A stretch of DNA of 52,619 bases. Origin: a virus. The notes below the pieces were generated by a model. The model did not search any database and was not told where the DNA came from. It saw only the letters and a list, made by a program, of their open reading frames with translations. Below, one piece after another: positions 13,192 through 52,619 of the stretch. How positions within the stretch are numbered: the first letter of the stretch is position 1; each line of letters begins with the position of its first letter. A program made the position numbers and the translations under genes. The stretch covers positions 1-52,619 of the IMG/VR virus record IMGVR_UViG_3300007516_000025; one strand, given 5' to 3'.

Positions 13192-15465
13192 ATGTCTGAA
13201 GAACAAAAACAAAATCTATCCCAATATTTATCTTCGGTCCAAGAGACCGAAGTATCTGATTTACATTTGTTCTCAAATGCTGTAGAGGGGTACTCTACAA
13301 ATATTGAAAATGATATTAATCCTTATATTTTTGATTTTGTGGCATTGACACCTGATATAAGAAAAATTTTTCTCATAAAAATAATAAAACCTTTAGAAAA
13401 AAGAAAAATTGATTATGCAGAAATTGAACTAATAAGAATAAAGTTATTAAAAAAAATAAAAGAAAAATATGAATTAGATTATGAAATTGATAATAATTCT
13501 TTACAATTTTTAAACTTTCATTATCCTAAATTTAGCTATGATTTTGTGACTTACAACTATGCAGGCTTTTATGATACTATCATATTAGAAGAAAAACAAC
13601 CAACAGAAGCAGCTCCACCAGAAGAAAATTTATCTTCAGTAAATAAAGAAAAACCAGAAGAAAAACCAGAAGAAATAGTAGATGATACCTTTATCAGAAA
13701 ACAACAGATTGATGATTATAAAAATATTTTAACATCTAGAGAAAATCGCATTGATATAGGTGATAGGCTGAAGAGAGGTTTGGGTAATTCTATTGTTAGT
13801 GCTACTACTGGCGTAAAAGTGGTTGTGCCATGGAAAATAGATACCTCTATAAACGGTATTTATAATAATTTTTTTAGCAAGTTCGATTTAGGGCAATTGA
13901 TCGGTAGATTCCTCAACGATTTAAGAACTTTAGACCCTACCATAGAATGCATCATTGACTCGGGTTCTCGATTTGTAAATAATCCTAATATTTGGGATTA
14001 TTTACAAATCCCAAATACTGTCAAAATAGGTAATTTAATACTACCAGCTTTTGATATGAATGCATTTATAAGCGATACAACAAGTATATTTAATTTTTAT
14101 GATTCAATAGTAGAATTTTTACTTAGACAGATAACAAATTATATTGTATTAAACTTTATTTCAGTTTTTGATTTTGCATCTGGATTTATTAATGGACTAA
14201 TAGATGAATATGTTGATCCAAATAACACATATAGCTTTATTAAAAACAGAGGAATAAGTTTAGTAAATAAAGATACTTCTGTTCCTAGTTCTCACTATAA
14301 ATATATGCCTATTGATTTTGATATTAAAACATATGTTTTAAAAAACAAAAATGAGGAAGAAATTAAACAATTATTATCTGATTTTGGTTTCGAATTGAGT
14401 TTCGAGCAATTAATTGATATAATTAAAAATCTTTTTCGTAATTTTAATATAAACCAATTGAAATCTATTGTCGGTGATGAATACAATTCATCAATGTACT
14501 TTATTATAAAACAAGTTATTTTACTTGTTATAAAAAACTTTGATTTACCGGAAGAAAGTTATCAAGGCATATTATTAATCTTACAAGCACTTATGGATAA
14601 AGATAGTTTCGAACAAAGCGAGGCGACTCTAGACAATTGTCTCCACTATGATCCATATGATGATTTGACTGCAAGGCTCGGAGAACTTGGGTATGAAAAT
14701 GATATCATTGTTGAAATTTTAAGCCTACAAAAAGATTCAGCTCGTAAAAATATGACTATGATGTGCAAAATTTTAAAGGGCGAACTTTTTAAACCTGATA
14801 TTAAAAAATATTCTAACCCAAAAATACAGGCAATATTGGAAAAAAATGTAGATAATGTTATGTCTATATTATCTATTAATAAATATGGAACACTTTTAAG
14901 CAGTTTAGAAGATTATTATTATAAAGCTAACGGTAATGCTCTCATTGGTTCTATAATTTTTGATTTAAATACTAGTAATAGATACAAAACAGAAATCTCA
15001 GAAAAATATAAATCCAAACTTGATGATTTAGGATTAATATATTCAAAAATAAAACAAGACTTCCCAGAAAAATATAAATCCAATAAACAATTTGGTGAAT
15101 TGACAAGAATAGAATCTTTCAGATTTTCAAATGAAAATTTTGATTTAGGAGTATCTGATCAAAATTTAGCGATAACGTATAAAGAAAATTCATATTCTTA
15201 CATTTATAGACGAAATAATGCAAATTTACAAGACATTATTTCAAACAGTCCTCTGTCCCTTGAAATCAAAGAAATATTTTTTAATAATCTTAAAAATATT
15301 GTTATTTTAACAACAGAAGACTTGGTTAATGAATTTTATATTGAGGAATATATAAAATTCAATATAAATTTAGAAGATAGTCTGAAGTTTAAATATATAT
15401 CAAATTTAGATAAGATAATAAATATAGATGGTATAAAGACAAATATTAAGAGAGAATTAGAATGA
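13192..15465 (+). CDS. Large hypothetical baseplate-region protein
   Basis: Function not recognised. 757 residues: a helical N-terminal domain (1-135), a flexible Pro/Glu linker (about 138-160, repeating EEKPEE), then a long helical region with Asn/Ile/Tyr-rich sequence. No signal peptide and no enzyme motif. Its place between the spike-like gene and gp25/gp6 makes a baseplate or tail-completion role likely. Several perfect inverted repeats lie inside, one with 16-bp arms at 13970-14010. The next gene's start overlaps its end by 4 bases. Confidence 0.7.
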   Translation: MSEEQKQNLSQYLSSVQETEVSDLHLFSNAVEGYSTNIENDINPYIFDFVALTPDIRKIFLIKIIKPLEKRKIDYAEIELIRIKLLKKIKEKYELDYEIDNNSLQFLNFHYPKFSYDFVTYNYAGFYDTIILEEKQPTEAAPPEENLSSVNKEKPEEKPEEIVDDTFIRKQQIDDYKNILTSRENRIDIGDRLKRGLGNSIVSATTGVKVVVPWKIDTSINGIYNNFFSKFDLGQLIGRFLNDLRTLDPTIECIIDSGSRFVNNPNIWDYLQIPNTVKIGNLILPAFDMNAFISDTTSIFNFYDSIVEFLLRQITNYIVLNFISVFDFASGFINGLIDEYVDPNNTYSFIKNRGISLVNKDTSVPSSHYKYMPIDFDIKTYVLKNKNEEEIKQLLSDFGFELSFEQLIDIIKNLFRNFNINQLKSIVGDEYNSSMYFIIKQVILLVIKNFDLPEESYQGILLILQALMDKDSFEQSEATLDNCLHYDPYDDLTARLGELGYENDIIVEILSLQKDSARKNMTMMCKILKGELFKPDIKKYSNPKIQAILEKNVDNVMSILSINKYGTLLSSLEDYYYKANGNALIGSIIFDLNTSNRYKTEISEKYKSKLDDLGLIYSKIKQDFPEKYKSNKQFGELTRIESFRFSNENFDLGVSDQNLAITYKENSYSYIYRRNNANLQDIISNSPLSLEIKEIFFNNLKNIVILTTEDLVNEFYIEEYIKFNINLEDSLKFKYISNLDKIINIDGIKTNIKRELE
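13232..13299. repeat. Two adjacent perfect hairpins near a gene start
   Basis: CTTCGGTC, loop CAAGA, GACCGAAG (13232-13252), then TGTAGAG, loop GGGTA, CTCTACA (13281-13299). Both have 5-base loops, and they lie 40-107 bases into the 13192 gene. Position near the start could influence translation or mRNA stability. Confidence 0.8.
13970..14010. repeat. Perfect inverted repeat, 16-bp arms, 9-base loop
   Basis: GATTTGTAAATAATCC (13970-13985) pairs completely with GGATTATTTACAAATC (13995-14010). It is entirely coding (within RFVNNPNIWDYLQIP). Sixteen consecutive matched pairs at this spacing are very unlikely by chance even in AT-rich DNA. Confidence 0.95.
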
Positions 15466-16433
15466 AAACAGTAGAAGAAACCTCACAAATTTATGTAAAT
15501 AATTTATTAGATCTATATTGTAGAGTATTTCTCCTAAAAGAAAATATGCATCTGCTCGGCACACTTGGTCAATATGGGTCTAAAATTTCATCTGAATTTA
15601 TTGTTGATAATATATTATCAACAATAGAGCCAACAATAATAAGTGTTTTTTCAGAACTTAATAAGAATATCAAAGAATATTTATTGAGGAATTTTCTTCA
15701 TATTGTCAATAATATAAAAGCACTAAACAGCAACATAAGTCCAATAAATATTTCTGATGTTGAAATTGATATGAATCACGTTGACTTCGAACAGCAAAAA
15801 TTTAAAAATACATATAATATTGAAAAATACATTATAGTGGAAGACACTGATATTAACGACGAAAACTTCCAAAACAGACAATATTTTTATAAAAACAAAG
15901 TAAACTCATCAATATTCTATTATTATGTTGAGAACTTTCTCGACGGACAGTATAAAAAATATTTTAAATCAATAAAGATGGGGGCGAGACTAAATTTTAT
16001 AATTAAAGAAGAAGATTTCAAGGGGAAGTTTTTAATCGAAGATTTAAAACAAGAAACAAGTAATTATAGAGAAAAAAACTGGATTTTGTTTCATAATAAT
16101 TTTACAGATTTTATTTTTTCTATAGAATTGTCAAAAACAGAATCTGTAAATCTTGCGACTGATTTAAATTCTGACGAATTACTGGGGCAGTTTATAAATG
16201 CTAACTCATATGAAATTTATGACGAAAGAGTCAATACTATATTAATGACATCTAATCAAATAATTTCTGAAACTTCTTCGTCTGATGTTTCAGAAATTAT
16301 TTCTTATATTAAAAATGATATAAATAACCAAACTATCAAAAATGTTCTTGAAGAGAATAAAGATTTTAATTCTTTGTGTTCTGATATTTTGGCATTAATT
16401 AAAAAATACCAAAATTATAAAGAATTAAATTAA
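15462..16433 (+). CDS. Hypothetical baseplate-region protein
   Basis: Function not recognised. 323 residues, helical N-terminal half and mixed C-terminal half, no signal or membrane segment. The 4-base overlaps with both the 13192 gene and the gp25 gene place it in one translational unit with baseplate genes. It holds the longest loop-free palindrome of the window (15599-15626) and a 16-bp inverted repeat (16258-16302). Confidence 0.7.
   Translation: MKTVEETSQIYVNNLLDLYCRVFLLKENMHLLGTLGQYGSKISSEFIVDNILSTIEPTIISVFSELNKNIKEYLLRNFLHIVNNIKALNSNISPINISDVEIDMNHVDFEQQKFKNTYNIEKYIIVEDTDINDENFQNRQYFYKNKVNSSIFYYYVENFLDGQYKKYFKSIKMGARLNFIIKEEDFKGKFLIEDLKQETSNYREKNWILFHNNFTDFIFSIELSKTESVNLATDLNSDELLGQFINANSYEIYDERVNTILMTSNQIISETSSSDVSEIISYIKNDINNQTIKNVLEENKDFNSLCSDILALIKKYQNYKELN
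15599..15626. repeat. 28-bp perfect palindrome inside a gene
   Basis: Two 14-base arms (TATTGTTGATAATA and TATTATCAACAATA) are exact reverse complements with no loop. The site is coding (IVDNILSTIE), 137 bases into the 15462 gene. As DNA it is a complete dyad and a potential cruciform. Confidence 0.95.
16258..16302. repeat. Perfect inverted repeat, 16-bp arms, 13-base loop
   Basis: AAATAATTTCTGAAAC (16258-16273) pairs with GTTTCAGAAATTATTT (16287-16302). It is in the 3' part of the 15462 gene, about 130 bases before the gp25 start. Confidence 0.95.
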
Positions 16434-16801
16434 TGCCAATACCAATAGATACAAAACTTCCCCTAAATATTAACACCAAAGATGGGTTTTATAGTTCCAA
16501 TACAGATATAAGGGATTCAGTAAAACAAAGTCTTAAGATGTTGTTTCTTACATCAAAAGGGGAAAGAATTCGTGATATTGATTTCGGTATTGGTGTACAC
16601 AAATTTTTATTTGAAATAGAGCAAATACTTGAGTTTAATGATGATTTGTCTTCTGAAATTCGCCGGCAAATAAGTAAATATATGCCGTACATTAAAATAA
16701 TTGACCTATCCGTTAAAACACAGGAAGAAAAGTTTAATATAAAATTGTTTTACAATATATCTAATATGAATATATCAGATAGTTTAACTTTAGAGGTATA
16801 A
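16433..16801 (+). CDS. 25: Baseplate wedge subunit gp25
   Basis: 122 residues, the usual size of T4 gp25/GPW proteins. Characteristic features are the central DIRDSVKQSLKMLFLTSKGER followed by IRDIDFGIGVHKFLFE, where the LLTxxGER and P/DFG-type elements form the family core, and the C-terminal beta strands (FNIKLFYNIS). The protein joins the wedge core and helps attach the wedge to the tube/sheath base. It is directly followed by the gp6 homologue, as is common in contractile-tail clusters. Confidence 0.9.
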   Translation: MPIPIDTKLPLNINTKDGFYSSNTDIRDSVKQSLKMLFLTSKGERIRDIDFGIGVHKFLFEIEQILEFNDDLSSEIRRQISKYMPYIKIIDLSVKTQEEKFNIKLFYNISNMNISDSLTLEV

Positions 16802-16802
16802 T

Positions 16803-18575
16803 ATGACACAAAAAAAAGCACTTTCACTCACAGATAAAGATTTTGACTCAATCAGGCAAGCCTGTCTGTTTTATGCAAAAAAATATTATCCTGATTCATA
16901 TAAAAACCTTTCATCGACTTCATTCGGTTCTATGATTTTTGATATATTTTCTGATATTGGTGATAACTTGTCATATTATATTGATTATAATACTAATGAA
17001 TCCTTATTAGAAAACGCTGTAGAATTTAGAAACATTGAAAAAATTTCTAAACAAATGGGATTAAAATTTACAGGAAGTCACGCAACGTACTCAACTATTG
17101 ATATTTTTGTGTTGATTCCTGCTTCAGCTAATCGCTTACCGAATAATGGATTATTACCCATTATTCGAAAGGGTAGCACTGTTAGTTCCGACGGAGCCTC
17201 TGTATTTACCATAAATGAGGATATCGATTTTACCAATGGTGAAATAAGTTTTGCTGTATCGGATGTTGACAGCAATGGGTATCCAACATCATTTGCTGTT
17301 AAAAAGAGTGGTCAAATTGTGTCTGGGGAATCTGTTCAGAAAAAATATGATATTGGCTCTATTGAAGGGTTTGTTAAAATTCCAATTTTAGATTCAAATT
17401 TTATACATGTTGAATCCGTTTTTGATTCTAGTGGTAATGAGTATCATCAAGTGGATAGTTTATCTCAGTCAATCATTCAACAGAAAGTCCCTAATTCCAA
17501 CATAAACTCTTCCAGTGATCCAAAGTTTTTCTTGAAAAACCAATACGTTTCAAGAAAATTTATTGTTGATAAATCTGGCGATATTTATTTTATTATATTT
17601 GGTAATGGTAAAGAGGATACAATTAGCGATTCTTCTGAACTACTGTTGGATTTGTATGGCAGAGAACAGAACAAAAGCAGTTATTTTGACCCATTAAAAC
17701 TTGTTACAAACAATACAATGGGGATTTCTCCTGCAAACACTACAGTTACTGTCTCTTACAGAACTTCTGGTGGCAATAACTCAAATGTAAGTATTGGCTC
17801 TATCAACAAGGTAAACAATGTTTTAATAGACTTTGATAGTTCCGTGACAGAATTACAAAGAAGAGCTGTTACCTCTTCAGTTGAAGTCACTAACCCCGAG
17901 CAGATCAGTGGTTCTAGAGATATTAAGTTTTCAGAAGAAATGAAATATTTAGCTTATGGATCATACGGATCTCAAAATAGAGCCGTTACTAGAAGTGATT
18001 ATGAATTTATTTGTTATAACATGAACCCAGAATTTGGCAGTGTAAAAAGAGCAAGCGCACTTATTGACAATTCATCATTCAATAAAATGATAAATATTTA
18101 TGTAATTTCTGAGGATTTAAGCACCTCGAACCTTATGCTCACAAGTAAAAGCATAAAAAATAATTTAAAAAATCATATTATGAAATATAATATGATGAAC
18201 GATACAATCAATATTGTAGATTCAAAAGTAGTCAATTTAAAAATTGAATTTAATGCTCTTGTTGTTCAAAATAAAAGTAAATTTGATATTTTACAAGAGT
18301 GCTATATGGAATTAAAAAAATTGTATGTAATAAAACACCAAATTGGAGAACCGTTAATTATATCAGATATTTATAAGGTATTAAATGATTTACCAAACGT
18401 AATAGATATCACAAATGTAATAATTAAATCTGTTGTTGGGAGTAATTATAATTACAATTCATTTGATATTGATGAAAATTTAACATCAGATGAAAATATA
18501 CTCATGTGCCCAGAAGATACAATATTTGAAATTAAATACCTTGATAAAGATATTAAAGGCATTATAATACAATAA
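16803..18575 (+). CDS. 6: Baseplate wedge subunit gp6 (baseplate J-like)
   Basis: 590 residues, close to T4 gp6 (660). The N-terminal FDSIRQACLFYAKKYYPDSY, SFGSMIFDIFSDIGDNLSYYIDYNTNESLLENA and RNIEKISKQMGLK match the conserved dimerisation start of gp6 proteins. ITRSDYEFICYNMNPEFGSVKRASA and the final strands also fit baseplate J-like proteins. Gp6 forms the ring of wedge dimers. It starts one base after gp25. Three inverted repeats with 10-11 bp arms lie inside (17140, 17527 and 18172). Confidence 0.9.
   Translation: MTQKKALSLTDKDFDSIRQACLFYAKKYYPDSYKNLSSTSFGSMIFDIFSDIGDNLSYYIDYNTNESLLENAVEFRNIEKISKQMGLKFTGSHATYSTIDIFVLIPASANRLPNNGLLPIIRKGSTVSSDGASVFTINEDIDFTNGEISFAVSDVDSNGYPTSFAVKKSGQIVSGESVQKKYDIGSIEGFVKIPILDSNFIHVESVFDSSGNEYHQVDSLSQSIIQQKVPNSNINSSSDPKFFLKNQYVSRKFIVDKSGDIYFIIFGNGKEDTISDSSELLLDLYGREQNKSSYFDPLKLVTNNTMGISPANTTVTVSYRTSGGNNSNVSIGSINKVNNVLIDFDSSVTELQRRAVTSSVEVTNPEQISGSRDIKFSEEMKYLAYGSYGSQNRAVTRSDYEFICYNMNPEFGSVKRASALIDNSSFNKMINIYVISEDLSTSNLMLTSKSIKNNLKNHIMKYNMMNDTINIVDSKVVNLKIEFNALVVQNKSKFDILQECYMELKKLYVIKHQIGEPLIISDIYKVLNDLPNVIDITNVIIKSVVGSNYNYNSFDIDENLTSDENILMCPEDTIFEIKYLDKDIKGIIIQ
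17140..17167. repeat. Perfect inverted repeat, 10-bp arms, 8-base loop
   Basis: CGAATAATGG (17140-17149) pairs with CCATTATTCG (17158-17167), inside the gp6 gene (PNNGLLPIIR). Confidence 0.88.
17527..17558. repeat. Perfect inverted repeat, 11-bp arms, 10-base loop
   Basis: TTTTCTTGAAA (17527-17537) pairs with TTTCAAGAAAA (17548-17558), inside the gp6 gene. Confidence 0.88.
18172..18196. repeat. Perfect inverted repeat, 10-bp arms, 5-base loop
   Basis: ATCATATTAT (18172-18181), loop GAAAT, ATAATATGAT (18187-18196), inside the gp6 gene. All arms are AT-rich apart from one G-C pair, so it is weaker evidence than the GC-containing ones. Confidence 0.8.
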
Positions 18576-39551: not shown

Positions 39552-40484
39552 ATGCACGAAAAAGAAGTTATTAGTAGATTACTTGGTCAACCAAAGGTGG
39601 AAGGGAGCGAAAGTCTTTTCTTCTGCCCTTATTGTTCCTATGGCAAGAAAAAGTTATCCATAAACTTCACCAAGATGAAGTTCAAATGCTGGAACTGTGG
39701 TAAAGGTGGTAACAATTTAATAAGAATTGTATTCGATTTTGGCTCAGAACAAGTAATTGAATATGCTAAGGCATATTTTTTTGTTGGCGGTGGTATAACT
39801 AAATACAATCTTTTATTAAAGGAAGAACCTAAACTATTAGAACCATTTAAAAATCTAACAGTTGAAAAACTATTAAGCAGTTGTTATGATGATGAAGATA
39901 AACATGTGTTGTATCTAAAATCAAGAGGTTTGACAGAAAGAGATTTCATTTTCTGGAAACCTTATACTGTTAAAGAAGATTATTATAAAGATTTTGTATT
40001 TTTCCCTTCATATAATACAATGTTTAATCAAGATTATTATATTGGTAGAGATATTACAGATCAAGGTAAATACAAATACAAAACACCAAACAAAATTTTA
40101 AAAGATAGTATCTTGTTCAATGAGTACAATATTGATTGGGATAAATCTATTAATTTAGTAGAAGGAATATTTGATGCTATTTCCTGTGGTATTAACAGCA
40201 TACCATTATTGGGTTCAGAGCTTGATACTGAAGGCAAATTATTCGAAAAATTATGCTTTTCTGAATCAGATATCTATTTGATTCTTGATGGCGATGCTAG
40301 GGAAAAAGCCTTTAGCATGATTGAAAAGTTTTTAAAACACGATGTTCGTGTTAAATACGTTCAAATTCCATATGATAAAGATCCCGGAAAATTAACCTCT
40401 TCCGAGATTAAAAAATATAAGAAAAATTATATCATTCATACATCTGTAAAAGATCTAAACTTAAAAGAAAAATATGACTATTAA
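39552..40484 (+). CDS. DnaG-type primase with zinc finger and Toprim domain
   Basis: The start at 39552 (MHEKEVISRLLG) leaves one base after the upstream stop; an ATG at 39522 inside the upstream gene is possible but less likely. The zinc site is Cys25-x2-Cys28 and Cys46-x2-Cys49 (FFCPYCSYGKKK, then FKCWNCGKGG). The catalytic Toprim region includes NLVEGIFDAIS (metal-binding Glu) and YLILDGDAREKA (DxD). It would synthesise RNA primers for lagging-strand synthesis, like T4 gp61. At 310 residues it is close to T4 gp61 in length, with no helicase fusion. It overlaps the SbcCD-like gene by 11 bases. Confidence 0.85.
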   Translation: MHEKEVISRLLGQPKVEGSESLFFCPYCSYGKKKLSINFTKMKFKCWNCGKGGNNLIRIVFDFGSEQVIEYAKAYFFVGGGITKYNLLLKEEPKLLEPFKNLTVEKLLSSCYDDEDKHVLYLKSRGLTERDFIFWKPYTVKEDYYKDFVFFPSYNTMFNQDYYIGRDITDQGKYKYKTPNKILKDSILFNEYNIDWDKSINLVEGIFDAISCGINSIPLLGSELDTEGKLFEKLCFSESDIYLILDGDAREKAFSMIEKFLKHDVRVKYVQIPYDKDPGKLTSSEIKKYKKNYIIHTSVKDLNLKEKYDY

Positions 40485-43431
40485 AATCGCACATATATCA
40501 GATATACATCTTAGAAATGATTCTAGACATAATGAATATATTAAAGTATTTGACAAATTTAAATCTTTAATGCATGAAGAAAAACCTGACATGCTTGTAA
40601 TTACAGGAGATGTCGCGCATACCAAATCAACCATATCCCCAGAATATGTGTCTTTGTTTGCTTCTTTCTTGAGAACCTGTAAAATGTTTCCAGGATTGTT
40701 AAGTATTTATATTACTCCCGGAAATCATGATATTAATGAAAAGAATAGGAATAGATTAGATACAATTTCACCTATTGTTGACATCATTAATAATGAAAAT
40801 GGTGTATACATTTGGAATTTACTTACTTCTTGTGTGTGTGATATTAGTAAAAATGCGTCATTTGTCAATTTTAGTATTCTTGACTCTAACAGAGAATTGG
40901 TAATTGATCCAACCAGATTCAATATAGGTCTCTTCCATGGTATTATCAATGGCGCTCAGACATCGCTAGGACACGTTTTGACGACCGAGGATGAGTCGTT
41001 CCTACCCTGTGACCTCTACATGCTTGGCGACGTCCACAAGCGCCAAAAACTGACCATCTTGGGCCATGATGCTTACTATGCAGGCTCCATGATCCAACAA
41101 GATCATGGAGAGTCCCAAGATAAAGGTGGTATTATCTATGAAATTGATGATATCAATAAAACATTTGAAGTGCGATATTTTGATTTGGAAAATAGCCACA
41201 AGTTTGTAGATATCAAAATTGAAGATTATGATAAAAATAATATTGACAAAAACAATAAAATAAGAATTATTGGTACCGTTGAAGAAATTTCCAATTTCAG
41301 AAATACCCAAAAAAGTAAAATTTCGAATACTTCTTATAAACTTTTAAAAACACCAAAAATTGAAGAGAGTGAAACTGAAGACAAGCAAATTGAAAAAGTT
41401 ACTTTAAATTTAGAAAGTATCGAGAAGATTATTAGAGAGAATTTCGATGAATATGTCAAACTATATGGCGATGATTTATTCAATATGAATGCAAAATATT
41501 TAAAAGAATTAAACTCGGAAAGCGATAATATTTATTGGAAAATTAATAATATTAGTTGGTCTAATATGTTTAATTACGGAAAAGATATCAGCTTAGATTT
41601 TTCTAGTTTTAGAGGGAATATTTTAGGTATTTTTGGGAAAAACAAAACAGGAAAAAGTTCTGTTATCGATGCTATTTGCTATTCAATTTATGGAAAATGG
41701 ACCAAGAGATCTGTTACTAATGATGTTTATATTAACAGCAGAGAAAATCAAGCAGAAACCTTAATAGAAATTGAAGCTGGTGGTATTATATATCGCATTG
41801 AACGTACTTTAAAGAGAAAACTTAAAGGAGCATCTTCAACTGTTAAACTCTTAGAAGATGGGGAAAATATTTGTGGTGATGATAAAAAGAAAACAGAATT
41901 AAAAATTGTTAAAATTTTTGGAAAGTTAGAAAACTTTCTAATGACAACCATTCTTAAACAATACGACGATGTTTCTTTTCTTAAAAGCAAAAGTTCATCA
42001 AGAAAAGAAACTCTTAACCAGTTTTTGGGCTTGGATAGTATTATCCCAATTACGGAAAAAATAGGAAACGATTTAAGCAATGCCAAAGCAATTAAAATTA
42101 ACCTTGAGTCACAGTTGGAAAATTTTTCTCAACAACTTGAAACGTGTTCCAATTATGATGATTTATTATTAGTATCTTCAATTTTAGAAGATAAAAAAGT
42201 TGTTCTATGTTCATCTAAAATTGTGTTGCAAGAAAATATTAATCTTGGAACTTCTTATAGTAAAAGGATTGAAGCATTTTCAAAAATTACCACATTAAAA
42301 GAAAAAATTACTACATTAGAGCTCAAAATCAATGTCGTAAAAATTGATGTCGATAACACTATAATAGAGATGAAACACCCTGACAGTAGAAGAGAAAAAA
42401 GAATAAAACTAAAAGAGCTTTTAGAAAGAGAAAAAACATTTTTGACAAGATTAAAATCTTTAGAGAAAGACGTTTCTCTATTAAAAGAAGTGCCCTGTGG
42501 CACTTCTTTTCCACAGTGCAAATTTTTAGTTTCGGCAAATGAGTCAAAAAACTCGACAGAAAAAGGTATAATTCTACTCGAAGAGCTTAGAACTAACATA
42601 AACTCAAATTATTACGATAGTGTTAGAGAAGATATAAATACTAATGATAAATCCGATTCTCCCCTTTATTTAATTAACGATATATGGATTAATCATAGTT
42701 TTATGGGAAAAGAACTTACTAGAGATAAACAAGACTTATTAAGATTAGAAGCTAATATATTTGATTACAATGAGACACACGAACAATATTACAACATTTT
42801 AGATAAATTAAATATAGAACTAAATGAATTAAATGAAAAAATTATATTAAATGAAAAAGAATTATCTATGAATAGTTTTTTGATTCTTAAATATAATGAT
42901 TTAATCAAAGACCAAAAAGGTACATTAGAAAAACTGACTAAAGCTGAATATAATTTTAATATTCTTAATAGTTATTCAAAAATTATGGGTAAAAGTGGTG
43001 TGGTTGTTCATTTACTTAATTCTCATATTGAACAGATCAAAATTCTCGTGAATATACTTTTATCTTCATTATGCACGTTAGAAGTTGATTTCGAAATTGG
43101 TGATAGTAAATTTGACATTTACTTTAAAGATGTAGAATCCGATGAATTTAAGACAATTGAGTGTGCTTCCGGAATGGAAGAATTTGTTCTAGGGTTAGCT
43201 ATTAGATTAACTTTAAACAAAGTTTCAATGATTTCTAAAAATAGTTTTGTGATTCTTGATGAACCGGGAACTGCTTTGGATATAGATAATCAGAAAATAT
43301 TTGGAGATACATTGGTTAATCTTTTAGGTGATTTTGATAATATTATCATTGTTACACACCTTGAAATTCTTAAAGATTATGTAAACAAAGTTGTAAATAT
43401 TGATATCAAAGATGGGTATTCATATTTATAA
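40474..43431 (+). CDS. SbcD-SbcC fusion (gp47-gp46-like recombination nuclease in one chain)
   Basis: 985 residues, about the sum of T4 gp47 and gp46. The N-terminal nuclease has Asp10 and His12 (HISDIHL), ITGD (Asp46), GNHD (84-86), FHG (His155) and GDVH (His188), the SbcD/Mre11 metal sites. The C-terminal ATPase has Walker A GKNKTGKSS (388-396), a central coiled coil with hook cysteines Cys675 and Cys682 (CGTSFPQC), the signature CASGMEEF (about 897-904) and Walker B FVILDEPGTALD (925-936). These are two proteins in other phages. One chain would ensure 1:1 assembly and processing of DNA ends. Hairpins lie exactly on the hook codons, and 40940-41110 is GC-rich. Confidence 0.9.
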   Translation: MTIKIAHISDIHLRNDSRHNEYIKVFDKFKSLMHEEKPDMLVITGDVAHTKSTISPEYVSLFASFLRTCKMFPGLLSIYITPGNHDINEKNRNRLDTISPIVDIINNENGVYIWNLLTSCVCDISKNASFVNFSILDSNRELVIDPTRFNIGLFHGIINGAQTSLGHVLTTEDESFLPCDLYMLGDVHKRQKLTILGHDAYYAGSMIQQDHGESQDKGGIIYEIDDINKTFEVRYFDLENSHKFVDIKIEDYDKNNIDKNNKIRIIGTVEEISNFRNTQKSKISNTSYKLLKTPKIEESETEDKQIEKVTLNLESIEKIIRENFDEYVKLYGDDLFNMNAKYLKELNSESDNIYWKINNISWSNMFNYGKDISLDFSSFRGNILGIFGKNKTGKSSVIDAICYSIYGKWTKRSVTNDVYINSRENQAETLIEIEAGGIIYRIERTLKRKLKGASSTVKLLEDGENICGDDKKKTELKIVKIFGKLENFLMTTILKQYDDVSFLKSKSSSRKETLNQFLGLDSIIPITEKIGNDLSNAKAIKINLESQLENFSQQLETCSNYDDLLLVSSILEDKKVVLCSSKIVLQENINLGTSYSKRIEAFSKITTLKEKITTLELKINVVKIDVDNTIIEMKHPDSRREKRIKLKELLEREKTFLTRLKSLEKDVSLLKEVPCGTSFPQCKFLVSANESKNSTEKGIILLEELRTNINSNYYDSVREDINTNDKSDSPLYLINDIWINHSFMGKELTRDKQDLLRLEANIFDYNETHEQYYNILDKLNIELNELNEKIILNEKELSMNSFLILKYNDLIKDQKGTLEKLTKAEYNFNILNSYSKIMGKSGVVVHLLNSHIEQIKILVNILLSSLCTLEVDFEIGDSKFDIYFKDVESDEFKTIECASGMEEFVLGLAIRLTLNKVSMISKNSFVILDEPGTALDIDNQKIFGDTLVNLLGDFDNIIIVTHLEILKDYVNKVVNIDIKDGYSYL
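41085..41110. repeat. Perfect inverted repeat, 10-bp arms, 6-base loop
   Basis: CTCCATGATC (41085-41094), loop CAACAA, GATCATGGAG (41101-41110). Coding (SMIQQDHGE), at the end of the nuclease part of the SbcD-SbcC fusion. Confidence 0.9.
42461..42510. repeat. Two adjacent hairpins over the zinc-hook codons
   Basis: TAGAGAAA, GACG, TTTCTCTA (42461-42480, 8-bp arms). Then, 2 bases later, AAAAGAAGTGCC, loop CTGT, GGCACTTCTTTT (42483-42510, 12-bp arms). The second codes for KEVPCGTSF, the tip of the SbcC hook. It has a GC-containing stem and ends in TTTT, so it resembles a rho-independent terminator placed inside a gene. Confidence 0.93.
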
Positions 43432-45141: not shown

Positions 45142-46809
45142 TTGTCGAACGAACAGAAACTAACAGCAACATATAAGAAATCGGAGTTATTTAGGTGTAA
45201 AAATGTCGTCTATTTCATTTCTAATCACATCTATATCCAAACACCTGGTTCTGGTAGAGAGAAATTTGATCTTTGGGACTTCCAAAGAGATTGTTTAAAT
45301 AGTTTTGAAGATACCAGATTTAACATTGTGCTCAAATCAAGACAGCTTGGTTTGAGCACTTTAATTTCAGCTTATGTACTCTGGTTGATGTTGTTTAATC
45401 GAGACAGAAACATTCTTGTCGTATCTATTAGAAGAGAAGACGCCCAAAAACTTATTAAGAAAATTAAATATGCTTATTCATATCTTCCAGATTGGATGAA
45501 AATTTCCAAACCAATTTCTGATAACGTATTTACTTTTGAGTTAGACAATCACTCTAAAGTTGTTGCCTCTGCAACAACAGAGAATATGGCTCGTGGTGAT
45601 GCGCTTACTCATTTATTTATCGACGAAGCAGGCTTTATTGATGGTTTAGAGGACGCTTGGCCCTCAGCTTGGCCGTCTATCTCTGTTGCAGGTAAAAGCA
45701 TTGTATTCAGCACGCCCAATGGGTCTGACAACTTTTTTTATAAGCTTTGGTCAGATGCTGAAGTCAAAGAAAACGAATTTAAAACAACTAAACTTATGTG
45801 GGATGTACGACCAGATAGAGATCAGGCATGGTATAATCGTACATTCAAGACGCTCCCAAGAAAGAAATTTGCCCAAGAATTCGAATGTGACTTTACACTA
45901 TCAGGTGATACAGTTATTGATCCTGAAGATATTGTGTATTATTCAAACTTCATTATTGAAGAAGAGGGTTTTTTCACAAGTGACAGAAAGGGTCGATATT
46001 GGAAAGAACCAGATCTTTCTCATAGTTATATTATTGCTGCGGACGTGGCGCGTGGCGATGGTGAAGATTATTCCTCATTTGTTGTAATGGATGTTGATGC
46101 GGATGAGATTGTTGCTGATTATAAAAATAAGATTAAGACTGATATATATGCAGAAATTTTAGTTGCGGCTGCAACATTATATAATCATGCGTTATTGGTT
46201 GTAGAAAACAACAACCATGGCTGGGCGGTATTGCAACGTATAATTCAAATGAAATATAAAAATTTGTATTACGCCGACAAAAAGACTCTTGAAATTATTG
46301 AGGGATATATTGATGATACAAGATCTGATATTATTGCAGGGTTTCCAACAAATCAAAAAACTAAAGTATTAATTGTAGAAAGACTAGAAGAGGCCATAAG
46401 AAATAAAAGATATTCTATTTATTCAGATAAGATAATTGACGAATTTAGGCAATTTGTTTGGATTAATGGTAAGGCCACTACCAAAAAAGGTTATCATGAT
46501 GACCTAGTTATATCATTAGCAATCTGTATCTTTGTTAAAGAATTTATTTATGGAAAATCAGAGATAAAAGCAGATTTGAACAGATTGATTCTTCCACTTA
46601 TCGGTAAAGAAACCAGAAATATGGAAACTAAAATACCGGGAATGATAGGATTTAAGAAAAAAGACAATAATTTTAATATATATAATTCATTGTCAAAAGC
46701 AGATGAAGATATTCGTCAACATTATTGGGTATTGGATAAGAAACCAGGTGCAAAAAAACCAGTTCAAGAAATCTCATATTCAAAAGCTCTACCAATTATA
46801 AAGATTTAA
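45142..46809 (+). CDS. terL: Terminase large subunit (gp17-like), TTG start
   Basis: 555 residues, near T4 gp17. The ATPase has Walker A LKSRQLGLST (64-73), Walker B THLFIDEAG (Asp161-Glu162) and the coupling motif FSTPNG (189-194). The nuclease domain has Asp301 (AADVARGDGED), Glu355 (VVENNNHG) and Asp453/Asp454 (YHDDLVISLA). The enzyme cuts concatemeric DNA and pumps it into the prohead through the portal, coded next. The start is TTG with AAGG about 10 bases upstream; no ATG fits. A 14-bp inverted repeat with one G-T pair lies over the Walker A codons. Confidence 0.95.
   Translation: MSNEQKLTATYKKSELFRCKNVVYFISNHIYIQTPGSGREKFDLWDFQRDCLNSFEDTRFNIVLKSRQLGLSTLISAYVLWLMLFNRDRNILVVSIRREDAQKLIKKIKYAYSYLPDWMKISKPISDNVFTFELDNHSKVVASATTENMARGDALTHLFIDEAGFIDGLEDAWPSAWPSISVAGKSIVFSTPNGSDNFFYKLWSDAEVKENEFKTTKLMWDVRPDRDQAWYNRTFKTLPRKKFAQEFECDFTLSGDTVIDPEDIVYYSNFIIEEEGFFTSDRKGRYWKEPDLSHSYIIAADVARGDGEDYSSFVVMDVDADEIVADYKNKIKTDIYAEILVAAATLYNHALLVVENNNHGWAVLQRIIQMKYKNLYYADKKTLEIIEGYIDDTRSDIIAGFPTNQKTKVLIVERLEEAIRNKRYSIYSDKIIDEFRQFVWINGKATTKKGYHDDLVISLAICIFVKEFIYGKSEIKADLNRLILPLIGKETRNMETKIPGMIGFKKKDNNFNIYNSLSKADEDIRQHYWVLDKKPGAKKPVQEISYSKALPIIKI
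45328..45359. repeat. Near-perfect inverted repeat over terminase Walker A codons
   Basis: GTGCTCAAATCAAG (45328-45341), loop ACAG, CTTGGTTTGAGCAC (45346-45359). Thirteen Watson-Crick pairs and one G-T pair. It codes VLKSRQLGLST, the Walker A motif, where codon choice must obey both protein and hairpin. Confidence 0.92.
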
Positions 46810-46812: not shown

Positions 46813-48849
46813 ATGCCAAAATACAAGCCAGAAAATAAAAATCCATATAATCCATCTAATGTACTTTACAAAAGATTGACTAAACTGTGGTCTTCTCAAT
46901 TATCTGCAATCAAAGATCCTAAAGCCTTTAATATTTCTTACGAAAAATTACAGCATAGAAATTTTAGATCTGCATCAGGACAGAGTTTTAAGAGAGAGGA
47001 TAAAGAACATCCATTATATTATCTAAATTCAGAAAAATTTGCTAATGCAGCAAGAGCTGAAAGATATGCCGATTTTGAACAGATGGAATATTTTCCTGAA
47101 TCAGCGGCTGCATTAGATATTTATGCAAACGAAATTACTACATATTCAGAATTTTCTCCACCCATTAACGTCAAGACAAACAACATTGAGATCAAAGAAA
47201 CGTTAAATTATCTATTTTATGATATTCTCAATGTTAAGAACAATATCTTTTCGTGGGTTAGAACACTTATTAAGTATGGTGATATGTTTCTTTATCTTCA
47301 TACCGATCAAGAACTAGGTGTTAAAGATGCAACAGCGTTACCAACAGCCGAAGTGGAAAGGCTTGAGGGTGAAGATGAAAGTAACCCCAATTATGTTCAG
47401 TTTCAGTGGAATAGAGGTGGAATGACATTTGAAAACGCTTGGCAGATTTGTCACTTTCGTCTTTTGGGTAATGATAAGTTTTTCCCTTATGGCACATCTG
47501 TACTCGATCCTGCTCGTAGAATTTGGAGGCAATTAGATCACTTAGAAAACGCCATGATGTCATATCGTATTGTAAGAGCGCCCGAAAGAAAAGTTTTCTA
47601 TCTTGATGTCGGTGGCCTTAATGATGAAGAAATTAAGCTATTTTTAGAGCAGACTCGCGGTAATATTAGAAGAAATGTTGTGACAGATCCTGAATCTGGT
47701 AGAAGCGATCAACGTTATAATCCTTGGTCTTCTGAAGAAGATTTTTTTATTCCCGTACGTGGTCAAAATTCAGGTACAAAGATTGAACAATTACCCGGTG
47801 GTCAGTTCACTGGAGTTGTTGATGATATTAAATATTTGAGAGACAAGTTTTTCTCAGCTATTAAAATTCCTGCTGCATATCTATCACAAGATAATACAGA
47901 AGACAAACAATCATTAGCTCAAAAGGATCTAATGTTTGCGAAGACTGTTCTTCGCTTACAGGGTGCTGTTCTTTCTGGTTTAACACAAATTGCAGTTACT
48001 CATCTTTATATCTTGGGATTTAGAGGTCAAGATTTATTATCATTTGACATCAGTTTGAATAATCCATCTAAAATTGCTGAAATGCAAGAATTAGAACAGT
48101 TCAAAATTCGCTGTGAAATTGGTACGGCAATGGTTGAGAAATTCTTTTCAACAGATATGGTATACAAGAAAGTATTCTCAATGCCCGATGATGAAATTAT
48201 TAAAGAAAAGATGATGCGTGTTCAAGACGTCAAATTTGATCTATTCTTGAGTCAGTTTGCTTCTGAGAATTCACCTGATATGGGTGGTGCTCTTGGTGGT
48301 GGAGCTATGGATGATATGGGCGGTATGGGAGGCATGGACCTCGGTGGAGGCATGGAAGGTATGCCAGATATGGGTGGGGAAATGGACCTCGGTGGAGACG
48401 CTGGTGGTGAAATGGGTGATTTACCAATGCCTGATAATGACGAGCTTGGTGAAGTTGATCAACAAATGAATCGACTTGATGCTGCTGAAAGATATGTCAA
48501 TCCAAATGCCAAAGCTAAAGATGGTAGAAAGTTCGACTCAATTAAGCGTCATAATGCCGCAAAAGTTAATCCACTTGGTGCAAAACAAAAAACGGCATCT
48601 GTTTTTAATAGTGTCAAGGGCACAGGTAATAATATTCGACCTGATCAAAAAACAGAAATTATCCCATCTTTGACGGGCAGAAATAGTGCCTATGACAAGA
48701 TGAAATCCTTGAGTAAAGGTAGAGTGACAAATGATTCTGTGTTAAGAGCTGGTAATAATAATCTGCTTTTAGAGAGCTTGCAGCTCTATCTAAATAATAA
48801 TCAACTAATTAATGATGACAATAATACGGAAGATAAAGATGAAGCATAA
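46813..48849 (+). CDS. 20: Portal protein (gp20-like) with Gly/Met-rich tail
   Basis: The body (1-480) has the gp20 layout: an N-terminal helical part with EQMEYFPESAAALDIYANEIT, a wing region with LIKYGDMFLYL, then PYGTSVLDPARRIWRQLDHLENAMMSYRIVRAPERKVFYLDVG, and the stem/crown with SAIKIPAAYLSQDN, SLAQKDLMFAKTVLRLQGAV. It forms the dodecameric head vertex ring and DNA channel. Residues about 486-545 are a Gly/Met/Asp-rich low-complexity stretch (GGGAMDDMGGMGGMDLGGGM, continuing), followed by a basic disordered tail. That extension makes it 678 residues against 524 in T4. The gene starts 3 bases after terminase. Confidence 0.92.
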   Translation: MPKYKPENKNPYNPSNVLYKRLTKLWSSQLSAIKDPKAFNISYEKLQHRNFRSASGQSFKREDKEHPLYYLNSEKFANAARAERYADFEQMEYFPESAAALDIYANEITTYSEFSPPINVKTNNIEIKETLNYLFYDILNVKNNIFSWVRTLIKYGDMFLYLHTDQELGVKDATALPTAEVERLEGEDESNPNYVQFQWNRGGMTFENAWQICHFRLLGNDKFFPYGTSVLDPARRIWRQLDHLENAMMSYRIVRAPERKVFYLDVGGLNDEEIKLFLEQTRGNIRRNVVTDPESGRSDQRYNPWSSEEDFFIPVRGQNSGTKIEQLPGGQFTGVVDDIKYLRDKFFSAIKIPAAYLSQDNTEDKQSLAQKDLMFAKTVLRLQGAVLSGLTQIAVTHLYILGFRGQDLLSFDISLNNPSKIAEMQELEQFKIRCEIGTAMVEKFFSTDMVYKKVFSMPDDEIIKEKMMRVQDVKFDLFLSQFASENSPDMGGALGGGAMDDMGGMGGMDLGGGMEGMPDMGGEMDLGGDAGGEMGDLPMPDNDELGEVDQQMNRLDAAERYVNPNAKAKDGRKFDSIKRHNAAKVNPLGAKQKTASVFNSVKGTGNNIRPDQKTEIIPSLTGRNSAYDKMKSLSKGRVTNDSVLRAGNNNLLLESLQLYLNNNQLINDDNNTEDKDEA

Positions 48850-49642
48850 TAAAAAAAAGAATATAGCTATAATTTTTGATATTTTGTTATTAGAGCAAGC
48901 TCGATATAAAATACTTCAAAATAGTGAAGATTATAATAAGATTGAACTCATTTTGAAGAAACATTTTCATGAGAATTCGTCTTTGTTAAAGGAATACTCA
49001 TTTTTCAATATTCTATCTACATTAAACACAAGTGGTGATCAATCAAAGGCCACAAAAATTTTACAAGAAGTTAAAAATTCATATAAGAATTTAGATAAAG
49101 ATTTAATTGAAAAAGATTTAACTCTATTGAAAGAAGATATTTCACACAATTTAGAAAGTAATTTTTATGAAAACTTTGTAAATAATTATAAAATCTATGC
49201 TACAATTTATAATATTTTAAATGAATGTATTTCAGACCCATTACAGCGTATTAAACTAGAAGATAAAATTGTTGATAATATGCTTTTAGAAGATAAGTCA
49301 GAATCACCTGATTATCTACTTGATTCCAGTACGATTAGTTATAATAAAGAATATATTAAATTTAGTAATAAAACAATTAACTTACTTCCTGAACAAAAAA
49401 CATTTTTAAATAAATATATAAATACTTATACAAATGATTTTGACTTTTTTATCTATCTCAACGAAGAAGTTAGGCGCTGTAAAGAGATTATTGATGTCAA
49501 TAAATCAAAAATTGACAGCGAAGAAGTTAAAAATATTCTTATGGAAAAGATTAATAACTTACCAAAGAAACATAAATTAGGAAAAGAGGATTTGGAATTC
49601 ATTTTAGAAATTCAAACCCTCGCAAGCAAATTGAATGATTAA
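48839..49642 (+). CDS. Hypothetical helical protein in the head module
   Basis: Function not recognised. The start at 48839 (MKHNKKKNIAIIFDILLLEQA) overlaps the portal stop and has GGAAG upstream. 268 residues, helical with many charged residues and no membrane segment. The place between portal and prohead protease is where T4 keeps core/scaffold genes (67 and 68), so a prohead core role is reasonable but not shown. It overlaps the next gene by 8 bases. Confidence 0.65.
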   Translation: MKHNKKKNIAIIFDILLLEQARYKILQNSEDYNKIELILKKHFHENSSLLKEYSFFNILSTLNTSGDQSKATKILQEVKNSYKNLDKDLIEKDLTLLKEDISHNLESNFYENFVNNYKIYATIYNILNECISDPLQRIKLEDKIVDNMLLEDKSESPDYLLDSSTISYNKEYIKFSNKTINLLPEQKTFLNKYINTYTNDFDFFIYLNEEVRRCKEIIDVNKSKIDSEEVKNILMEKINNLPKKHKLGKEDLEFILEIQTLASKLND

Positions 49643-50186
49643 AGAAAATTTTAAAATCTTATTGAATGAAGAAAAAGATATTTATATTGAATTAGATATT
49701 TCAAGAACGCTTGACGATAATTTGATCATTAATGATCATCCTTATTTTTCTATCATTATTTCAGATAACCACAATAAAATCATTACAATTCCCAAAAAAG
49801 GATTCGATGAATACACTTTACCAAGACAAATGAAGTTCTTTGATTATATGTGCCAAAAAGGCGTTATTGCTTTTGGTAGTGTTCATGGAACAATTATGCA
49901 CCAATCCCTAGAAGGTAAGTTACCTCATAATCTTGATGTAAATTCTATTCAAGTTGCATTGATGTGTATTTATGATTTTGTGAAGACAGAATTCGAAAAA
50001 GATTTAAAATCGAAAGAACATAGAGAGAAGTTCGAGCGTTCATTACTTGATCCATCAGACGAAGATTCTACAGAATTAGGTGAGGTTCCTCACGAAAAAG
50101 AAAAAGGTACAATACCTAAGACTCCATGGGGATACATGGGTGGTGGATACAATGGTGGTCTTGGTAGTTATTCTCGATTATATTAA
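49635..50186 (+). CDS. Hypothetical protein in the head module
   Basis: Function not recognised. 183 residues: an alpha/beta N-terminal domain (1-125, with YFSIIISDNHNKIITIPKKG and GVIAFGSVHGTIMHQ) and a disordered C-terminal tail with Gly/Tyr-rich end (WGYMGGGYNGGLGSYSRLY). It lies upstream of the protease in the head gene run, so a prohead role is possible. A 16-bp palindrome is inside at 49723-49738. Confidence 0.65.
   Translation: MIKENFKILLNEEKDIYIELDISRTLDDNLIINDHPYFSIIISDNHNKIITIPKKGFDEYTLPRQMKFFDYMCQKGVIAFGSVHGTIMHQSLEGKLPHNLDVNSIQVALMCIYDFVKTEFEKDLKSKEHREKFERSLLDPSDEDSTELGEVPHEKEKGTIPKTPWGYMGGGYNGGLGSYSRLY
49723..49738. repeat. 16-bp perfect palindrome inside a gene
   Basis: TGATCATTAATGATCA reads the same on both strands. 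It is coding (LIINDH) in the 49635 gene. At 16 bp it is the weakest of the loop-free palindromes listed and could be chance. Confidence 0.85.
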
Positions 50187-50205: not shown

Positions 50206-50442
50206 ATGAAAGTCAAAATCAAAAAAGGTGAATTAAAAAGAATGTTATCTGAGGAAACTGCTAGGTTTTTTTCACCAGAAGTATCCCCTCTATTAGAAGC
50301 TGTTTCAAAATTGGTAGAATTGTATGAAGGTTCAAATAGTGGTGGCAGAGAGATATTAGATGAAGTTTTTACGCTTTTAGAAAAAGAATTAATGCTTGAT
50401 AAAGGTGATAAAAGAATTAAGGATTTAATCAATGCAAGATAA
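50206..50442 (+). CDS. Small helical protein, possible prohead core component
   Basis: Function not recognised. 78 residues. A basic N-terminus (MKVKIKKGELKRMLSEETARF) followed by amphipathic helices. The KKGELKRML start resembles in style the MKTSELKNMIKESIREVL start of the 51054 protein, so both may bear a short N-terminal assembly motif. It overlaps the protease gene by 11 bases. Small helical proteins beside gp21 in T4 are core proteins cleaved during maturation; this remains inference. Confidence 0.6.
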   Translation: MKVKIKKGELKRMLSEETARFFSPEVSPLLEAVSKLVELYEGSNSGGREILDEVFTLLEKELMLDKGDKRIKDLINAR

Positions 50443-51046
50443 TAGATTTCTTATTAGAGAATTTAATGAACATGTTGAATTACTTCAAGAAAATTCCGTA
50501 AAAGTAAAAGATGATTATATCTTTAAGGATGTTCTATTACAGGTCGCAGATAAAAAAAATGCTAATAATAGAATTTATCCACTTAAGACATTAAAAGAAC
50601 AAGTAAATCAATATCAAATTAAGATTAAAAACAAAGGTGCAGTAGGTGAATTAGGACATCCCGAAAGAGCAGAAGTTGATCCAAAACTTATCTCACATCA
50701 CATTGATTCTATTTGGATGGTAAACAATGAAGTTCGCGGAGATGTAAGAATCCTTGGTAAAACCAGAGAAGGCTCTGAAACAGTTAATTTAATTGAATCA
50801 GATATTAAGCTCGGATTGTCTTCTAGAGGATTAGGTTCAATTATTAATAAAGGGGATCATATTGAAGTTCAAAAAGATTTCTCGTTTGTTTGCTGGGATA
50901 TTGTTATTGATCCTTCTACAGATAGAGCGTTTCTAAATGAATCAAGGTCATTAATTCCATATAATCAACTTATTTCACATGAATCTAATCTAGTTAATGT
51001 AAACAATTTGGCTGAATTGATTGCCAACAAATATAAAAGAAAGTAG
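50432..51046 (+). CDS. 21: Prohead core protease (gp21-like)
   Basis: 204 residues, close to T4 gp21 (212). The serine-protease signature of the family is clear: GELGHPERAEV (His76) and IKLGLSSRGLGS (Ser130/Ser131), with the framing segments NANNRIYPLKTLKEQV, WMVNNEVRGDVRIL and CWDIVIDPSTDRAFL. It cleaves scaffold and capsid proteins before packaging. Its position behind the portal and ahead of a scaffold-like protein matches head clusters of this group. Confidence 0.92.
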   Translation: MQDNRFLIREFNEHVELLQENSVKVKDDYIFKDVLLQVADKKNANNRIYPLKTLKEQVNQYQIKIKNKGAVGELGHPERAEVDPKLISHHIDSIWMVNNEVRGDVRILGKTREGSETVNLIESDIKLGLSSRGLGSIINKGDHIEVQKDFSFVCWDIVIDPSTDRAFLNESRSLIPYNQLISHESNLVNVNNLAELIANKYKRK

Positions 51047-51053: not shown

Positions 51054-51386
51054 ATGAAAACAAGCGAATTAAAAAATATGATTAAAGAAAGTATTAGAGA
51101 AGTACTAAGCGAACAAAATACACTTAAACTTCTTTTTACTGAGAGTTTAAAAACTAGTATCGGCTTAATTCTAGAAAATACGAACAGAGGTTCACATGGT
51201 AATTTTAATAAAGAGGAAAAGTCTGAGCAAGATATTATGAGAGAAAATGCTCAGTTTTCTAGAAATATGTCTAAAGGAATTGCTAAAGTTAATGCACCGA
51301 AAAAAGAACAACTATTTAAAAATACTGATCCAATGTTGTCTAAAATGATGGCAATGACTAGTATTGATGATTTTGAAGAAGAATAA
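51054..51386 (+). CDS. Small protein, scaffold-like, with N-terminal helix motif
   Basis: 110 residues. The start SELKNMIKESIREVLSEQNT is an amphipathic helix with a short repeat style common in head-assembly proteins of large phages. The rest is hydrophilic with an acidic end (MTSIDDFEEE). It starts 7 bases after the protease gene, the place of T4 gp22 scaffold, but is much shorter than gp22 (269 residues). It could be a reduced core protein or an unrelated small protein. Confidence 0.6.
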   Translation: MKTSELKNMIKESIREVLSEQNTLKLLFTESLKTSIGLILENTNRGSHGNFNKEEKSEQDIMRENAQFSRNMSKGIAKVNAPKKEQLFKNTDPMLSKMMAMTSIDDFEEE

Positions 51387-51407: not shown

Positions 51408-51617
51408 ATGGCAAAGGTAGTAAATTTTGAGACAAGATGCAGAGATAATGAACACTCCGATAGATTAATTAAGAGATTTGTTAAAAAGACGTCTAAAGTA
51501 GGTCTAGTAAGAGACCAATTGGATAATATGCATTTTGTTTCTGATTCAGAAAAGAAACGTTTGAAGAAAAAGCGCAAATTGAAGCTTGCAAGAAAGTTCA
51601 ATATTGAAAATAATTAA
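51408..51617 (+). CDS. Ribosomal protein bS21-like
   Basis: 69 residues, the size of bS21 (71 in E. coli). The pattern fits: LIKRFVKKTSKVGLVRDQLD corresponds to the bS21 helix with RRFKR-type residues and K-x-G-hydrophobic, then FVSDSEKKRLKKKRKLKLARK to its P/S-x-x-x-R-K-R basic C-terminal helix. It is nearly all helix with extreme positive charge. bS21 is the small-subunit protein most often carried by phages, where it may replace the host copy and favour phage mRNAs. A GAGAG-type ribosome site is upstream. Position in a head module is unusual for a translation gene. Alternative: a DNA-binding basic head protein. Confidence 0.65.
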   Translation: MAKVVNFETRCRDNEHSDRLIKRFVKKTSKVGLVRDQLDNMHFVSDSEKKRLKKKRKLKLARKFNIENN

Positions 51618-51631: not shown

Positions 51632-52078
51632 ATGGCTATCACATCAGGAAGACCATCATTAGGTAATGCATCAGCGTATCAGGTATCAGGTTGGCCGTGG
51701 GTCACTGGTTCAATTATGGCGGTTGGCAAATATTTTAAGGAAGTTAACTTTCCTTCAGTGACTAAAAGTTTTACAGTTGTTAATTTAGATGCAACACATA
51801 TTCACCCTGCTGCTGATCAAACAGGTACAAAGGCTATATTTATCTTTTTTGGAGATGTAAGTGTTGCTGATACTGTTCAACCTGATCAAATTTTAAACAA
51901 TCACTTTATTACAATTCCTGAAGATAAAAACGGATTCGTGTTTGATGTAAAATGCAGAAAGATTTTCGTTGGTTGTCATGATATTGTAGGAATAGGAGCT
52001 TTTCAAATTTTTGCAGAACTAACCAATGTGCCTGCTGTAGATATGCCTGCATTAAGTGGGAATGGAATAGATGATTAA
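51632..52078 (+). CDS. Virion structural protein (possible capsid decoration)
   Basis: 148 residues, a single beta-sandwich-like domain. The start ITSGRPSLGNASAYQVSGWP with WVTGSI, then FPSVTKSFTVVNLDA and the strand-rich remainder resemble small virion proteins found near the capsid gene in large phages. No signal or membrane segment. AAAGGATATT precedes the start. Whether it decorates the capsid or serves the tail cannot be decided. It overlaps the FN3 gene by 8 bases. Confidence 0.6.
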   Translation: MAITSGRPSLGNASAYQVSGWPWVTGSIMAVGKYFKEVNFPSVTKSFTVVNLDATHIHPAADQTGTKAIFIFFGDVSVADTVQPDQILNNHFITIPEDKNGFVFDVKCRKIFVGCHDIVGIGAFQIFAELTNVPAVDMPALSGNGIDD

Positions 52079-52619
52079 CCGATATAAAATACTTAAAAAC
52101 TATAACATATTTGGTTTGTTTAAACGAACTCTTAGTTTACCGGCGTTGACACTTGACATTGAAGCACCTACGGTTCCTGCTTCGTTGGTTGTGTCTGCCC
52201 TTGCTCCGACAACTTTGACACTTACTTGGGCTGCATCGATCGACAATGTTGACGTCGTATCATACCAAGTTGAGCAGAAACTAACATCTGCGGGTGACGG
52301 CACCTACGTTCAGATTTACACTGGTATTTCATTGACGTCGGCTGTGACCGGCCTTGTCCAAAACACGAACTACAGTTTTCGTGTTCGGGCGACAGATGCG
52401 GCAGAAAACTCTTCAGCTTATAGCTCGGCCGTAACGGCTTTGACACTTGACAGTGAAGCACCTACGGTTCCGGCTTCGTTAGCGGCATCTGCACTTGCTG
52501 CAACGACTTTAACACTGACTTGGGCGGCGTCAACCGACAACGTTGGTGTCGTGTCTTATCAGGTGCAGCAGAAACTAACGTCTGCGGGTGACGGCACTTA
52601 CGTTCAGATCTACACGGGG
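52071..52619 (+). CDS. Fibronectin type III repeat protein (partial, runs off the window)
   Basis: An open frame from the ATG at 52071 runs through 183 codons to the window end without a stop. After about 24 residues (MINRYKILKNYNIFGLFKR), FN3 domains begin with EAPTVPASLVVSALAPTTLT, LTWAASIDNV, VSYQVEQK, YSFRVRATDAAENSSAYSS. This is one complete domain (about residues 26-123) and most of a second. The DNA is about 55% G+C in 52141-52200 by hand count, far above its neighbours. FN3 repeats on phage capsids or tails usually bind cell-surface glycans loosely. It overlaps the previous gene by 8 bases. Confidence 0.8.
   Translation, partial: MINRYKILKNYNIFGLFKRTLSLPALTLDIEAPTVPASLVVSALAPTTLTLTWAASIDNVDVVSYQVEQKLTSAGDGTYVQIYTGISLTSAVTGLVQNTNYSFRVRATDAAENSSAYSSAVTALTLDSEAPTVPASLAASALAATTLTLTWAASTDNVGVVSYQVQQKLTSAGDGTYVQIYTG
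52146..52619 (+). repeat. Tandem FN3-coding repeat, 294-bp period
   Basis: The first unit starts at 52146 (TTGACACTTGACATTGAAGC) and the second at 52440 (TTGACACTTGACAGTGAAGC), 294 bp or 98 codons apart. Over the 60 residues visible in both, 53 are identical. The close DNA match suggests recent duplication, and more copies may follow beyond the window. Confidence 0.88.

Follow-up and report, generated by a model that had tools for sequence, protein, structure and literature searches.

Ribosomal protein bS21 belongs to the 30S subunit, where it lies next to the 16S rRNA end that carries the anti-Shine-Dalgarno. Phage bS21 has been called the most common phage-encoded ribosomal protein (PMC6375957, PMC9976891), and of the ribosomal proteins found in uncultivated viruses, 88% were bS21 (PMC6375957). 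Among Bacteroidetes phages the bS21 gene is found near the head genes and is co-expressed with structural genes, and late expression has been proposed; a core structural gene lies within ten genes in 388 of 900 published bS21 phages (PMC9723584). The protein is loosely associated and exchangeable (PMC9578407). That of Pelagibacter phage HTVC008M enters E. coli ribosomes, and the resulting ribosomes made GFP in vitro at ~5% of the wild-type level (PMC6375957). In Bacteroidia, bS21 with Tyr54 serves as an anti-Shine-Dalgarno clamp, and both the Y54A change and a C-terminal truncation in F. johnsoniae bS21 raise translation of strong-Shine-Dalgarno reporters (PMC9976891). In the accessible text of PMC13157829 and PMC11926189, phage S21 appears in the reference lists only.

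The DNA analyzed here, termed the window, is a complete linear virus record of 52,619 bases; because the record is linear, it is probably a fragment of the phage genome. No tRNA genes were detected within it. One plus-strand run of genes continues unbroken from the terminase through the portal protein, proteins of 276, 183 and 78 amino acids, the prohead protease, a 110-aa protein, bS21 and a 148-aa protein to an fn3-repeat gene that is still open at the contig end (Table 1). The bS21 gene is separated by 21 nt from the gene before it and by 14 nt from the gene after it. No Pfam match was found for the 148-aa protein. The terminal fn3 ORF (window 52071-52619, plus strand; PF00041 E 3e-11) has a GC content of ~50%, compared to 29% across the window, and is a possible recent acquisition or assembly join. 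Elsewhere, a 985-aa protein (window 40474-43431) has an N-terminal match to calcineurin-like phosphoesterases followed by SMC/AAA domains and resembles an SbcD-SbcC fusion.

Table 1. Genes of the head cluster surrounding the bS21-like gene, with positions in the window.
Feature	Position	Strand	Evidence
Terminase large subunit (gp17-like)	45142..46809	+	phrog_2 E 2.9e-49
Portal protein (gp20-like)	46813..48849	+	phrog_213 E 2.8e-62
Head-cluster protein, 276 aa, kept in relatives	48812..49642	+	44 matches in relatives' loci set
Head-cluster protein, 183 aa, kept in relatives	49635..50186	+	37 matches in relatives' loci set
T4-type prohead protease (gp21-like)	50432..51046	+	PF03420 E 1.8e-20; phrog_207 E 6.1e-42
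110-aa protein, no assigned function, directly before bS21	51054..51386	+	homologues in same place in 14/14 bS21-bearing L005-L049 loci
bS21-like ribosomal protein gene, 69 aa	51408..51617	+	PF01165, TIGR00030, phage bS21 HMM, structure model
148-aa protein, no assigned function, directly after bS21	51632..52078	+	homologue in 8/14 loci

An earlier note on this DNA had placed a bS21-like gene within the head cluster. The placement is borne out by the terminase and portal upstream and by the protease two genes before bS21, and the homology by profile searches. The ORF, which runs from ATG to TAA, matches PF01165 at E 2.3e-5 and NCBIfam TIGR00030 at E 3.7e-5, and no family besides bS21 matched it in the Pfam and NCBIfam libraries. 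These E-values are significant, but the scores (24.5 and 23.5 bits) fall below the curated cut-offs of 27 and 28.95, so that the profile check upheld the homology by E-value and not by curated threshold. In PHROGs, S21 reached only E 0.096, with two families of unknown function ahead of it at E 0.028 and 0.072. When PDB sequences were searched with phmmer, 16 of the 19 matches at E ≤1 were bS21, and the other three, two spidroins and the DNA-binding protein tfx (E 0.62 to 0.69), were unrelated.

By direct count, 21 of the 69 residues are K or R. Since the protein is so rich in these residues, an HMM of 15 other phage bS21s was built as a composition control, leaving out the window protein and its nearest relative, L045. 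This model gave the window protein 43.9 bits, compared to at most 12.4 for 5000 same-residue shuffles and 4.6 for the runner-up among the 178 window ORFs, with a training set that had been collected partly by using the window protein as query. Each of the 17 proteins in the family alignment (A4) matches PF01165 independently at E ≤0.01, and 14 of the 17, the window protein not among them, match phrog_21469 (S21) at E ≤0.001. A profile of 16 sequences (A5) retrieved 36 PDB sequences at E ≤0.001, all of them bS21 or organellar bS21. Taken alone, the sub-cut-off library scores and the K/R content would fit a chance product of basic, helical composition. This explanation is contradicted by the profile search and by the synteny described below, and the shuffle control led us to reject a composition artefact; we consider it extremely improbable. 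We accept membership in bS21 despite the low library scores because of the contrast between the HMM score and the shuffles, and because 14 of 45 portal-related records carry an over-cut-off bS21, 13 of them in the same slot. Judged from its sequence, the gene encodes a real, divergent phage homologue of bS21.

Relatives were taken as the best 80 of 593 confirmed portal relatives from viral contigs; a single-protein scan with the window protease found none. Of the 45 closest (L005-L049), 15 match PF01165 at E ≤0.1, 14 of them over the cut-off, and seven of the next 35 match at E ≤0.01, all over the cut-off. All 22 matching relatives among these 80 have bS21 and the portal gene on one and the same strand. 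Fifteen of the L005-L049 loci extend more than 1.2 kb past the protease, and 14 of these have bS21 there, in the order protease, variable gene, bS21. Each of the 14 directly follows a homologue of the 110-aa protein, and in eight the 148-aa homologue comes next. In the exception, L041, the 148-aa family adjoins the protease and the contig stops soon after the 110-aa homologue. Flavobacterium phage immuto has the same core gene order, with no recognisable bS21 in the slot. The proteases of the window and L045 lie on very long branches (7.29 and 3.02, compared to a median of 0.32). We make no claim of congruence between the protease and bS21 trees, given the very long window protease branch and the lack of support for most forks.

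Two further features of these loci were observed. Several small proteins that follow the protease (window 51054-51386; 14408-18387 in the 484-kb phage L004, LR756508.1) start with short helical leaders that resemble one another and end near L-x-E or a like motif; these leaders may act as signals for prohead targeting and cleavage. In L004 the portal gene (7767-11927) encodes 1386 aa with several inserted stretches of intein-like appearance.

An AlphaFold2 model made with 16 sequences has predicted helices at residues 17-31, 33-40 and 46-68 (mean pLDDT 83.6, pTM 0.43). The ten best PDB chains found by Foldseek are all ribosomal, at E 0.42 or worse, and occupy bS21 or organellar bS21 chain slots where the A5 profile search names them. 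With VIA, the nine best rows are bS21-type ribosomal chains at weak values (Z 5.8 to 4.8, rmsd 7.4-8.0) and share one register (model residue 7 on chain residue 2; in the top row, 6 on 1); the next row is a microtubule-associated chain at Z 4.2. Seven of the nine best matches in a viral structure library are named S21 and two are nameless, with weak E-values. The predicted bS21-like fold lends the assignment support but not proof.

The window protein departs from most other phage copies at several otherwise kept residues, and its ribosome binding may therefore be altered. S29, L38, S45 and D46 (window numbering) are shared with L045 and differ from 15 other phage copies, which usually have K/R, R/K, K and P, respectively. 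The position of F. johnsoniae Tyr54 is occupied by K59, which is not aromatic, as placed by extending an ungapped phmmer alignment by a few residues; a clamp of the Bacteroidia type is thus not expected in the window protein. Tyr is found at this position in 2 of 17 copies (L028 and L045). Both loci use Shine-Dalgarno sites, which indicates that Tyr alone does not mark a phage without them.

The genes of the window phage start translation through ordinary Shine-Dalgarno sites: mean duplex energy, computed against a generic anti-Shine-Dalgarno, is -4.43 at 50 called starts and -2.42 at other ATGs (p 1.5e-8). The bS21 gene itself has a weak site, AAAG, placed 10 nt ahead of its start. For the Microcystis phage Mel-JY01 the corresponding energies are -5.29 and -2.66, whereas immuto, at -0.99 and -3.22, makes no use of such sites. 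Shine-Dalgarno sites are used in 17 of 17 bS21-bearing loci tested, including the window and Mel-JY01. To tabulate bS21 against site use, we entered 83 loci (80 viral contigs, the best of 593, with the window, Mel-JY01 and immuto) and kept the 27 that had four or more starts and no less than 2 kb of DNA beyond the protease; the 56 dropped loci include the window and L042, which have too little downstream DNA. bS21 was present in 20 of the 23 loci that use Shine-Dalgarno sites and in none of the four without (Fisher p 0.002), at an energy threshold chosen after a first look at the data; because the four site-less loci represent two lineages, this p overstates independence. The three site-using loci that lack bS21 are L041, L056 and L084, the last of which is borderline for site use and has a site-less locus as its sister. 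Presence of bS21 may be linked with Shine-Dalgarno use in this T4-like family, which we regard as a lead and not as proof.

Its use of Shine-Dalgarno sites makes a typical Bacteroidetes host less likely for the window phage. Comparison with bacterial bS21, suggested in the earlier note as a way to the host, gave none: among solved structures the best match was bS21 from a chloroplast (E 0.0023). No close match to the window protein was found by tblastn of a phage collection at E 0.01, and a scan of viral contigs with the same query gave none. With four relatives as query, a scan of genome contigs returned 11 loci from diverse phyla. One of these, L104 (NZMJ01000169.1), is a phage contig that had been binned as a Maricaulis MAG; it hints, weakly, at an alphaproteobacterial host for some members of the family. 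Its gene order is protease, 110-aa homologue, bS21, as in the window.

We favor, as the probable explanation, that the phage bS21 is made late with the head proteins, replaces host bS21 on the 30S subunit and favors late phage mRNAs bearing Shine-Dalgarno sites. Transcription of the gene would take place late, together with that of the head genes, as suggested by the 21-nt and 14-nt gaps flanking it and by the behavior of other phages. Late expression had been proposed in the earlier note; its support here comes only from where the gene lies and from metatranscriptomic data on other phages that carry bS21 (PMC9723584). A late promoter candidate, TATAAATA, was rejected: it has 29 matches compared to 16.6 expected, but these are on both strands and none is directly before bS21. 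Sigma-70-like sites (40, compared to 34.0 expected) were not used as evidence. Phage bS21 would then displace host bS21 by exchange, as may be supposed from the entry of the HTVC008M protein, a different phage protein, into E. coli ribosomes. Initiation on the resulting subunits would be tuned in favor of the Shine-Dalgarno-bearing late mRNAs, in keeping with the hypothesis that phage bS21 steers initiation to phage mRNAs. The homology with its shuffle control, the predicted helices, the conserved slot and strand, and Shine-Dalgarno use count for this explanation; the sub-cut-off scores, weak fold matches and changed consensus residues count against it.

The low output of E. coli ribosomes carrying HTVC008M bS21 (PMC6375957) suits a brake no less than a factor that redirects translation. 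The phage protein might thus poison the ribosome, displacing host bS21 and lowering host translation generally with no preference for phage mRNAs, and the changed linker residues of the window copy could be read in the same way. However, that assay used a foreign ribosome, and the gene is surrounded by head genes, which call for high translation; a late general brake would hurt the phage. We consider this explanation unlikely. A similarly low probability attaches to a former bS21 turned to another use, for example in binding RNA or as an internal capsid protein carried in the head. Packaging of phage bS21 has been raised (PMC9723584), the gene adjoins the protease and other small head-cluster genes, and consensus residues are changed in the window/L045 branch. 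Relatives in the same slot nevertheless mostly keep the bS21 consensus, with 14 of 15 matching L005-L049 records passing the Pfam cut-off, and bS21 lacks a leading sequence like that of the neighboring 110-aa protein. This last argument assumes that such leaders are linked with prohead targeting.

Beyond the favored explanation of late exchange, a more specific version may be entertained, though we think it doubtful: that bS21 of the head slot is an initiation-specificity factor, kept with Shine-Dalgarno mRNAs and absent where hosts mask the anti-Shine-Dalgarno, and that the linker of the window and L045 branch has been rebuilt so that exchange of its bS21 into 30S at a late stage favors head mRNAs bearing Shine-Dalgarno sites. 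In a bolder form, a bS21 without the Tyr54 clamp might unmask the anti-Shine-Dalgarno in a Bacteroidota host, much as F. johnsoniae Y54A does (PMC9976891). Phage bS21 is common, yet its effect on initiation is unproven, and this gives the family its value. Its related phages differ, at the same head-gene slot, in whether they carry bS21, and they also differ in whether they have Shine-Dalgarno sites; tuning of Shine-Dalgarno initiation by phage bS21 is thereby open to comparative and laboratory test. The gene, of modest interest in itself, gains from its same-strand slot and possible Shine-Dalgarno link.

The open-access literature searched held nothing joining rpsU, phage and prohead protease, and nothing on Mel-JY01. 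Precedent in metagenomic phages, to which the earlier note had appealed, is provided by bS21 near phage head genes (PMC9723584) and by the annotated RpsU of Mel-JY01 (PP395634, WWT39311.1). The latter, annotated as S21, lies two genes past the prohead protease on the same strand, as in the window, in a phage that likewise uses Shine-Dalgarno sites; it is ~20% identical to the window protein over the whole alignment and, unlike it, keeps the K-P-S linker motif. The nearest relative found, from L045 (IMG/VR contig 3300005664_000376), is 45% identical and sister to the window copy in the bS21 tree (99/96), with the changed linker S-D-S common to both; it departs from the window copy in carrying Tyr at the place inferred for Tyr54, in a contig that nevertheless uses Shine-Dalgarno sites. 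HTVC008M is also a T4-like phage with a bS21 gene, but there the gene adjoins CobS, Hsp20 and replication genes outside the head cluster, whereas the window copy is inside it. The Bacteroidetes phages of Chen 2022 (PMC9723584) are like the window phage in being of myovirus type with bS21 in the terminase-portal-protease-capsid region. Their bS21 gene runs on the reverse strand, and its product has an aromatic residue at the Tyr54 position, in contrast to the same-strand gene and the Lys at the inferred position in the window. Since bS21 beside phage head genes had already been described there, the window gene is a divergent addition to a described kind, set apart from those phages by its same-strand slot, its non-aromatic residue at the Tyr54 position and its place in a Shine-Dalgarno-using phage.
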